Source: Kordiimonas sp.
GTDB lineage: Bacteria > Pseudomonadota > Alphaproteobacteria > Sphingomonadales > Emcibacteraceae
Length of the DNA stretch: 64,000 nucleotides
Assembly: GCA_002700365.1 (NCBI GenBank)
Contig: PADB01000012.1
Coordinates: 496,001 to 560,000, forward strand
Reading direction: 5' to 3'
In this document: positions 16,257-26,465 of the stretch, in pieces
How the letters are laid out: every line of letters begins with the position of its first letter
How positions within the stretch are numbered: the first letter of the stretch is position 1
Program-made: the position numbers and the translations under genes
The notes under the pieces: generated by a model
What the model saw: the letters and a program-made list of their open reading frames with translations, nothing else
What the model was told of the DNA's origin: nothing
Databases searched by the model: none

Positions 16257-17066
16257 TTAAGACGCGGCTTCCTCAACAGGTTCCGCTGTCTCAGTTACTT
16301 CTGCATCCGCTGCAATTTCTGCTGGTAGCTCTTCGGCCACGTCTTCAGCTGCGCCTACATCCACGCCGGCAGCACTTAATTCGGCCTGCAATCCGTCCAG
16401 AACGGAATCTGCAATTAAATTACAGTATAACTGAATGGCACGGCTAGCGTCGTCATTCCCAGGTATCGGCAGATCAATATTTTCTGGATTACAGTTCGTA
16501 TCCACAACCGCCACAACCGGGATTCCCAATTTGCGGGCTTCGCCAATGGCCAGTTCTTCTTTATTCGTATCAATCACAAAGATAATGCTGGGCAAACCGC
16601 CCATATCTTTGATCCCGCCCAATGAACGCTCCAGTTTGTCACGCTCACGTGTCAATTGCAGGATTTCTTTCTTTGTTAAACCGATATGCTCTTGTGAAAG
16701 CTGCTCATCGAGTGCTTTCAGGCGCTTAATAGAATTTGAGATGGTTTCCCAGTTTGTCAACATCCCGCCCAACCAGCGGTGATTAACAAAATACTGACCG
16801 CAACGTTGTGCGGCCTCTGCAATCGGACCAGATGCCTGACGCTTAGTACCAACAAACAAAACCCGGCCACCAGAAGCCGTTACGTCGCGTACTTCCTGAA
16901 GTGCGCGTTGCAACATTGGGACCGTAACGGACAAATCAATGATATGCACTTTGTTGCGCACACCAAAGATGTACTTACCCATACGTGGGTTCCAACGATG
17001 TGCTTGGTGACCAAAATGAACCCCAGCTTCTAAAAGCTGACGCATAGAAAAATCGGGCAATGCCAT
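16257..17066 (-). CDS. rpsB: 30S ribosomal protein S2
   Basis: Small-subunit ribosomal protein uS2. The 269 aa protein begins [19 protein letters not shown] and contains [19 protein letters not shown] and the [10 protein letters not shown] signature. A C-terminal acidic, Ala/Glu/Val-rich tail of about 40 residues extends beyond the conserved core, as in many alphaproteobacterial S2 proteins. The ribosome-binding site AAGGAATT precedes the ATG. It is followed by tsf, the usual operon. Confidence 0.98.
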
Positions 17067-17165
17067 AATATAATTCCTTTTCCGGTTATGCCGCCGCAGA
17101 TGTGTGATTTACCAGGCTCATCCCAGAAAACACCGGATGGACCCCAAAGGCCCTGATCTGCGTGT
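17067..17165 (-). promoter_or_regulatory. Structured 5' leader of rpsB (candidate autoregulatory region)
   Basis: The 170 bp upstream of rpsB holds a long-range perfect pairing, CGCAGAT (17095-17101) with ATCTGCG (17156-17162), closing a 54 nt interior that itself contains a small hairpin around GGACCCC/GGGCC (about 17139-17153). Leader regulation of rpsB by S2 is known in enterobacteria; whether this leader is homologous is not established. Confidence 0.4.
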
Positions 17166-17236
17166 GAAGTGGCGCTGTCTTACGATGAAATCATAAGAAA
17201 TACAAGCCCCAATAGACGAAGTTTCTACATTCTACG

Positions 17237-25439: not shown

Positions 25440-25883
25440 TTATCTTTTCTGCATCTCACGTCTTTCCAGCTTATGGCAAGCTTCCGTTAATTGCGCTCTC
25501 GATGCAGAATCTATTGCATATCCATTGTAAAAAACATCATTGCCGATCACCTTAATTTCCCCCAATGGCATCTCCATCAATACCCCCCCAACATTATGCT
25601 CTTCAGAGCCGGCTCTTTTCTGCAGATCTATTTCTATGGGAATCTTCACTGTTTCAGGTATCCACAAACCATCATCTTTCGGCAAATCCGCCGGAACCAC
25701 AGCCTGTCCATGCACATCTTTCCCTGGACGGTATGTCACGTCATCTTGTGGCAAATGTGCCACAAGTTCAGCACATTTGGCCTCATCCAGGGTTACGACA
25801 ACACTTTCTGCCAACGCATGGCAGGTCGTCATCAAAACGAAAAAGGTACTAAAAACAACTCTTTTCACGGTTTTATGCTCCAA
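25440..25883 (-). CDS. Small exported protein of unknown function
   Basis: A 147 aa protein with a good signal peptide (basic start, VVFSTFFVLMTTCHALA, cleavage near residue 25) and a mature part of about 120 residues, including the phrase PGKDVHGQAVVPADLP and a charged C-terminus. It has no membrane helix after the signal, so it should be periplasmic. I do not recognise a characterised family. The frame opens with TTG at 25883, which has GGGGGAAG upstream; GTG at 25868 with GGAG upstream is equally possible. It lies between proS and the DUF1467 gene, interrupting an otherwise very conserved cluster. Confidence 0.75.
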   Translation of the reverse strand: MEHKTVKRVVFSTFFVLMTTCHALAESVVVTLDEAKCAELVAHLPQDDVTYRPGKDVHGQAVVPADLPKDDGLWIPETVKIPIEIDLQKRAGSEEHNVGGVLMEMPLGEIKVIGNDVFYNGYAIDSASRAQLTEACHKLERREMQKR

Positions 25884-25950
25884 GATGACTTCCCCCTCAC
25901 CCGAATGTGACTATTTTGCAACATATCCTAAGATTTTAATTATATTGTCA

Positions 25951-26131
25951 TTTTCTATGATGACATAACGCAAAAGCTTAAGTAACCTGATCTGCATCAA
26001 ATGAGGAGCGAGTAGCCCAAGTTTGGGGAGGGAGAGCATCCTAATAGATGAAAATAAAAATGTCTATGGTATGCTCATAAAAATAAGATCAATAAGATCA
26101 CGCAAGGTTCACGCGAACCTTGCTTTTTTTT
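25951..26131 (+). ncRNA. Candidate small RNA ending in a strong intrinsic terminator
   Basis: A plus-strand terminator (9 bp perfect stem GCAAGGTTC at 26102-26110 and GAACCTTGC at 26115-26123, loop ACGC, eight T at 26124-26131) has no plus-strand gene before it; the flanking genes are both on the minus strand. Upstream is an extended hairpin: GAGCAT (26034-26039) with ATGCTC (26071-26076), then CC/GG, then ATAGA (26044-26048) with TCTAT (26063-26067), with small bulges. A short CCCA-AGTT-TGGG hairpin lies near 26016-26027. TTGCAA at 25916-25921 with an AT-rich -10 region near 25939-25946 is a possible promoter. The 5' end is a guess. No match to 6S, tmRNA or SRP RNA was seen. The stretch 25884-26222 holds nothing else except the repeat listed next. 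Confidence 0.55.
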
Positions 26132-26222: not shown

Positions 26223-26465
26223 TTAGCTGATTGTGATGAGCTCATATTTATTTACCAACCAGAAAAGTCCCCACACAATAATTGTAAGCCCTGTTGTTAT
26301 CAGAACCTTTTGTTTCAATTTAGGATTATGGGGAGCTCCTGCTTCTAACCCTTCATCGTACTCCTCTTCCACTTCGTGTAAAGAGCGTACCCCCCACGGC
26401 AAAACCATAAAAAATAACAGCCACCAGGCCACCACAAATACAACTATATGACTGACGATGCTCAT
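26223..26465 (-). CDS. DUF1467 family membrane protein
   Basis: An 80 aa protein with two membrane helices: residues 5-28 (HIVVFVVAWWLLFFMVLPWGVR) and about 52-72. The PWGVRSLHE and ...GAPHNPKLKQKVLITTG motifs are those of DUF1467, a small alphaproteobacterial family found next to methylmalonyl-CoA epimerase. Function is unknown. It lies 32 bp after mce and is probably the last gene of the nuo-birA-coaX-rnj-mce transcript. Confidence 0.85.
   Translation of the reverse strand: MSIVSHIVVFVVAWWLLFFMVLPWGVRSLHEVEEEYDEGLEAGAPHNPKLKQKVLITTGLTIIVWGLFWLVNKYELITIS

Follow-up and report, generated by a model that had tools for sequence, protein, structure and literature searches.

Few small RNAs are as widespread in alphaproteobacteria as alpha-r8, which in the handful of species studied so far influences catabolite repression, carbon storage, and transporters of the outer membrane. 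In Caulobacter crescentus, the RNA CrfA has been described as a sponge that takes up four alpha-r8 RNAs (SisA-D) and depends on Hfq; it pairs with the 10-mer UUUCCUCCCU of SisA-D and lowers SisA in an Hfq-dependent manner (Vogt 2025, PMC12559287). The same source also names QrrX, AgvB, AsxR, SroC, and 3'ETS-leuZ as sponges (PMC12559287). The start of crfA has been placed at 3781500 on the minus strand of strain NA1000 (PMC5988900), and SuhB of Sphingopyxis granuli is active, together with Hfq, when the growth rate is high (PMC6563040). Within the literature searched, the coverage of which is incomplete, CrfA is the only published alpha-r8 antagonist, and no proS-linked alpha-r8 sponge was found (most subscription papers lie outside this coverage).

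Here, we describe a locus of Kordiimonas sp. located within a 64,000-nucleotide stretch of contig PADB01000012.1, hereafter the window. A sequence-only reading of the window had proposed a new stand-alone small RNA on the plus strand, a proposal now supported by a conserved position, a promoter, a conserved core, and a terminator with compensatory changes. The conserved unit, its promoter, the covariation of its terminator, and its complementarity to the genome's own alpha-r8 were all established computationally, and on this predictive basis the RNA is very probably a chromosomal sponge (antagonist) of alpha-r8 that resembles CrfA in its action. The features of the locus are as follows.

25440-25883, minus strand: conserved gene without a Pfam match, upstream of proS
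25906-25923, no strand: imperfect palindrome TGTGACTATTTTGCAACA, a copy of TGTTGC-N6-GCAACA
25960-25965, plus strand: -35 box, ATGACA
25983-25988, plus strand: -10 box, TAACCT, after a 17-nt spacer
25995-26131, plus strand: predicted small RNA of about 137 nt, its start inferred from the -10 box and its end given by the T-run
26014-26035, plus strand: core AGCCCAAGTTTGGGGAGGGAGA, antisense to alpha-r8 and near-invariant in an alignment of 24 sequences
26034-26076, plus strand: bulged hairpin of the predicted fold, private to the window's genome and absent in relatives
26077-26101, plus strand: A-rich linker ahead of the terminator, also A-rich in aligned relatives; a plausible Hfq contact (function inferred)
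26102-26131, plus strand: intrinsic terminator GCAAGG..CCTTGC-T8 (stem 26102-26123, T8 26124-26131)
26223-26465, minus strand: DUF1467 gene

Anatomy and conservation of the unit

The plus-pointing intrinsic terminator with eight T residues is exactly as first described, and both neighboring genes lie on the minus strand, as had also been stated. Its stem comprises nine pairs closed by a 4-nt loop, and it has both the longest stem and the longest T-run among the plus-strand sites of a 4-kb scan, in which seven terminator-like sites were found on the two strands against 3.3 expected. A possible promoter, suspected earlier without being located, corresponds to the ATGACA and TAACCT boxes listed above. 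The earlier size estimate of about 180 nt is not supported: the RNA likely measures about 137 nt and starts near 25995 instead of 25951. The fold of this 137-nt RNA is more stable than that of shuffled sequences with a z-score of -4.70, and that of the 181-nt stretch (25951-26131) also exceeds its shuffles (z -2.58). The conserved part of the RNA is the core, with the consensus G(G)CCCAAGUUU(A/G)GGGAGG at window positions 26014-26035.

Conservation of both stems in relatives had been named as the check on the initial proposal, and the two stems fared differently. In the alignment of 24 sequences, the terminator shows compensatory changes in six of eight stem pairs. The hairpin at 26034-26076 is present in the DNA, and the fold prediction includes it, but it has no counterpart among the aligned relatives, and it was rejected as a functional element. 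Across the whole structure, 92.8% of cells are paired, and the covariation score is 0.268 against 0.152 for shuffled alignments (0/500), while a short CCC..GGG helix varies so little that no verdict on its covariation is possible. Novelty with respect to Rfam, left earlier as a further check, was borne out, as the RNA belongs to no Rfam family: a search of Rfam 15 against the window and its relatives returned no match above the gathering score at the locus, only unconvincing ones below threshold. Elsewhere in the window, a marginal match to RF01815 (the rpsB sRNA family) was observed at 17066-17166 on the minus strand (41.2 bits, cut-off 40). The neighboring gene at 25440-25883 encodes a conserved protein of 147 aa with a TTG start and, judged by eye, a signal-peptide-like N-terminus; it stays adjacent to proS in many alphaproteobacteria.

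DNA similarity searches in the genomes of 60 relatives recovered only the window's own copy, and gene position and covariance models were therefore used instead. The promoter-core-terminator unit lies between DUF1467 and proS in all 14 alignable loci of the family, which share the pattern RTGACA-N17-TANNNT, CCCAAGUYUGGG, an A-rich linker, and GCAAG..CUUGC followed by a U-run. The promoter pattern RTGACA-N17-TANNNT occurs exactly in 46 of 71 loci (mean 0.1 and maximum 2 in 200 control sets) and loosely in 61 (controls: mean 3.0, maximum 8). These results bear on the view that the site is a mere terminator, bidirectional and serving DUF1467, or the leader of a short peptide. In several relatives, A-runs before and T-runs after the hairpin could indeed serve both strands; nevertheless, we consider this view barely credible, given the weak minus-strand tail in the window, the conservation of an upstream promoter and core, and the lack of a conserved start codon. 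A leader peptide was rejected, with an ATG no more than 20 nt after GGGAGG in only 6 of 71 loci.

At a threshold of E up to 0.002, a covariance model built from the family loci (R1) found the unit in 27 of the 32 genomes of the family, each time adjoining the conserved gene and/or proS; the misses were G017 (99% complete) and four genomes that are 53-67% complete. A weak match on contig C63 of G017 was set aside. Families f4, f5, and f7 contributed further members of the unit, located upstream of proS. With a wider model of 24 sequences (R2, E up to 0.05), matches were obtained in 66/196 genomes of the order and 48/385 of the class, and named organisms that carry the unit include Thalassospira (L038, L039, L049, L054) as well as an uncultured Sphingomonadales bacterium (L080). 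Among the class loci inspected, 19 of 29 adjoin proS, DUF1467, or the conserved gene, and the other 10 were set aside, one of which (L172) is an RF00519 match seen in antisense. In a phylum-wide control of 200 drawn genomes, 10 contained a match at E up to 0.01, including the window's own genome. Five others belong to the same class; G697, G704, G718, and G475 have both core and proS, and G612 has neither. The remaining four, outside the class, reach a best E of 7.5e-5 without core or proS, so that E-values alone are insufficient and gene position is needed beside the score. Weak model matches away from proS were likewise set aside (L141, L143, L146, L148-L150, L154, L156-L158), among them L158, which has a CCCAAGTTTGGGGGAGG stretch without proS; this stretch is overlapped on the opposite strand by an RF00519 match that, at 32.6 bits, stays below the cut-off. 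Weak antisense R2 matches on true alpha-r8 genes (e.g. L037, L103) were excluded from the 71 loci.

Predicted pairing with alpha-r8

The window's genome carries a single alpha-r8 over the cut-off (RF00519, comprising MmgR/SuhB/SisA; G000 C4:188698-188774, 58.1 bits, cut-off 41). It adjoins an N-formylglutamate amidohydrolase gene (FGase, PF05013), a neighborhood given as the usual alpha-r8 location in PMC12559287. Core positions 26015-26034 are complementary to GUUUCCUCCCUAAACUUGGGCC of this alpha-r8 over 20 contiguous pairs, 17 of them Watson-Crick and three G-U, and an Hfq gene is present in the genome. Some features count against a sponge: the predicted duplex contains a 3-nt bulge in genus g5 of the window's family and, in most genomes of f5, one C-C mismatch, and in one or more of 1000 trials a monomer-shuffled sponge reached the energy of the real duplex.

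In three proS-linked loci (L173, L178, L182), RF00519 matches the strand opposite to the unit with 36.6-47.9 bits. In G534, the antisense match spans 59 aligned bases and takes in the alpha-r8 terminator, which suggests an origin as an inverted copy. The opposite-strand matches at L173, L178, and L182 could also speak for a functional RNA on the other strand, an alpha-r8 paralogue viewed in antisense. This is very unlikely, and for the window it was rejected, because RF00519 matches neither strand there at E up to 10; the scanned family loci likewise lack a match, the plus strand is the one that bears the promoter as well as the terminator, and the true alpha-r8 is located elsewhere both in the window's genome and in G534. 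On the RNA's own strand, RF00519 membership could not be upheld, and some distant relatives match on the antisense strand only.

The two RNAs are not always found together. Two genomes, G017 (99% complete) and G039 (95%), possess neither the proS-linked unit nor a significant alpha-r8, a co-absence that rests on these two events only. Conversely, alpha-r8 is present without the proS-linked unit in G043 and G038. In f6, none of the seven genomes searched has a proS of this type, and alpha-r8 was found in all five that were searched for it; such cases indicate that the sponge is not obligatory. As a separate observation, certain g3 genomes (L003, L004, L014, L016) have their alpha-r8 gene just downstream of DUF1467, in the place of the sponge in other genera. 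Their sponge is on another contig, where it adjoins the conserved gene, and also proS whenever that is in range; both RNAs are thus linked to parts of one gene neighborhood. Two tandem RF00519-like RNAs below the cut-off were also seen in the window's genome (L237, G000 C4:201466-201544 and 201815-201894). They contain GAAGCCUCCCUAUAUUUU and a GGCCGGG..CCCGGCC terminator, and possibly represent a second, uncatalogued family.

Covariation between the two RNAs was analyzed in 62 genomes that carry both cores. The per-position table covers 58 of these, four being left out for having fewer than 17 pairs in the ungapped register; the pair set omits G020, G022, and G024, since the best match to RF00519 in each is another, below-cut-off type (that of L237), and the core table omits G028, since the regular expression missed its alpha-r8. 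Compensatory Watson-Crick changes were identified at core positions 6, 9, 10, and 11. Position 6 is A-U, or G-C in f36, f114, and f133; position 9 is U-A, or C-G in f5; position 10 is U-A, or C-G in part of g3, f49, f77, and f163; and position 11 is U-A, or C-G in f5, f7, and f8. As a forward test, five further sponge cores were read before the corresponding alpha-r8 sequences were fetched. New compensatory changes then emerged at positions 5 and 7: position 5 proved to be A-U in G045 and G032, G-C in G055, and C-G elsewhere, and position 7 was G-C in G052; G050 aligned poorly without gaps (10 + 4 of 22), and pairing with a 1-nt bulge was discerned by eye.

Cognate partners form on average 16.87 Watson-Crick pairs of 22, compared with 15.63 when partners are shuffled (0/10000), and the result also stands for the 52 distinct combinations. 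When one genome per family was taken (14 families, 20 draws), 0/2000 shuffles were as high as the observed value, whichever draw was used. The window's family taken by itself gave no such advantage, cognate partners being no better than shuffled ones (15.30 vs 15.17, 1960/10000). Because shuffling ignores the tree, the compensatory changes in separate lineages outweigh the p-value. Judged from these comparisons, the two RNAs changed in step across many alphaproteobacteria, without support inside the window's family alone. Like the shared upstream palindrome discussed below and the presence of the Hfq gene, this intermolecular covariation across families is a computational observation.

Two further explanations have to be weighed against this evidence. 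The RNA might be a trans-acting small RNA of the usual kind, in which GGGAGG targets C/U-rich mRNA stretches and the match to alpha-r8 is incidental. In keeping with this idea, the core is conserved, in part unpaired, and resembles a seed; the idea is nonetheless improbable, as the complementarity of 20-22 nt reaches beyond the anti-Shine-Dalgarno 10-mer and compensatory changes occurred in several lineages. Alternatively, the pairing may be real and the direction wrong, the RNA being a regulated target or decoy of alpha-r8 that leaves alpha-r8 levels unaffected. Pairing and covariation are silent on direction, and SisA also lowers CrfA in Caulobacter (PMC12559287); we allow this only a slim chance, since no conserved reading frame follows GGGAGG (the 6 of 71 loci mentioned above), leaving nothing obvious for alpha-r8 to regulate. 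As the core is antisense to the working part of alpha-r8, the RNA most likely sequesters alpha-r8, and a sponge remains the preferred reading.

Upstream palindrome and regulation

Of the 71 loci, 57 have TGTTGC-N6-GCAACA, with up to three mismatches, ahead of the unit; controls average 8.6, with a maximum of 15 in 50 trials. The conservation of this palindrome suggests regulation. It sits 96-137 nt before the core in 41 of the 57; the remaining 16, placed elsewhere, may be due to chance. The distance from the palindrome to the -35 box is 54 nt in f1 and 65-67 nt in f4, f5, f7, and f8, a difference of about one helical turn. From its position, an activator can be suggested by inference; the regulator reading the palindrome and the inducing condition are likewise only inferred.

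The exact palindrome appears once in the window's genome, 116-133 nt before its own alpha-r8 (L306, C4:188890-188907). Allowing three mismatches, it precedes alpha-r8 at -127 to -136 in 23 of 26 f1 and 3 of 4 f4 genomes and is missing in most genomes of f5, f7, and f8, giving 32/65 over all genomes (control 6.3, maximum 10). Other exact copies were noted before a gene resembling clpB (L307, L316) and between genes resembling ntrC and ntrY (L314, L315), the names being assigned by eye.

A broader hypothesis, which we hold only tentatively as possible rather than probable, is that the two RNAs form an old pair shared by the whole class. The proS-linked RNA would be an inverted alpha-r8 copy turned dedicated antagonist, the two having since coevolved base by base, and one transcription factor would read both genes in the window's lineage via TGTTGC-N6-GCAACA. 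If this were true, one regulator over a small RNA and its sponge would form a single circuit in that lineage.

Proposed function and comparison with known systems

In the proposed mechanism, the sponge would be transcribed from the RTGACA-N17-TANNNT promoter and end at the T8 terminator. Its core G(G)CCCAAGUUU(A/G)GGGAGG would pair with alpha-r8 along 20-22 nt, forming a duplex predicted to cover the 10-mer UUUCCUCCCU, used by alpha-r8 to block ribosome-binding sites, and to continue into the 5' arm of the alpha-r8 terminator stem. Alpha-r8 would thereby be masked and destabilized, probably on Hfq, and its target mRNAs might be freed when conditions change; the example of CrfA in Caulobacter suggests, by analogy, a shortage of carbon or energy. 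Expression of the RNA, Hfq binding, the sequestration or decay of alpha-r8, and the lowering of alpha-r8 with derepression of its targets are inferences.

If a conserved antagonist does lie beside proS, alpha-r8 and its sponge would constitute a general circuit of the class and a clean example of two small RNAs coevolving through compensatory mutation. The list of genomes carrying the pair would offer ready material for testing, and the shared palindrome makes control of the sponge directly testable.

Toward alpha-r8 (RF00519) itself, the window RNA is complementary and shares the upstream palindrome in this genome; being of opposite sense, it is an antisense mirror rather than a member of RF00519. 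SuhB, to judge by its name an alpha-r8 RNA, represents a candidate target type for such a sponge and not a relative of it. In NA1000, proS presumably lies far from crfA (3781500). The proS-linked locus is accordingly taken to differ from that of crfA, and it is far more widely conserved; the likeness proposed for the two RNAs is one of action. QrrX, AgvB, AsxR, SroC, and 3'ETS-leuZ are likewise RNAs that sequester another small RNA, but they come from other bacteria and have other targets. Both CrfA and the window RNA are stand-alone genes, the latter with its own promoter and terminator as read from the DNA, and both pair with the alpha-r8 10-mer UUUCCUCCCU through a G/A-rich stretch, which for the window RNA is a computed result. 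CrfA pairs via G49-C63 (15 nt) of its second stem-loop (PMC12559287), whereas the pairing predicted for the window RNA extends over 20-22 nt and enters the alpha-r8 terminator stem.
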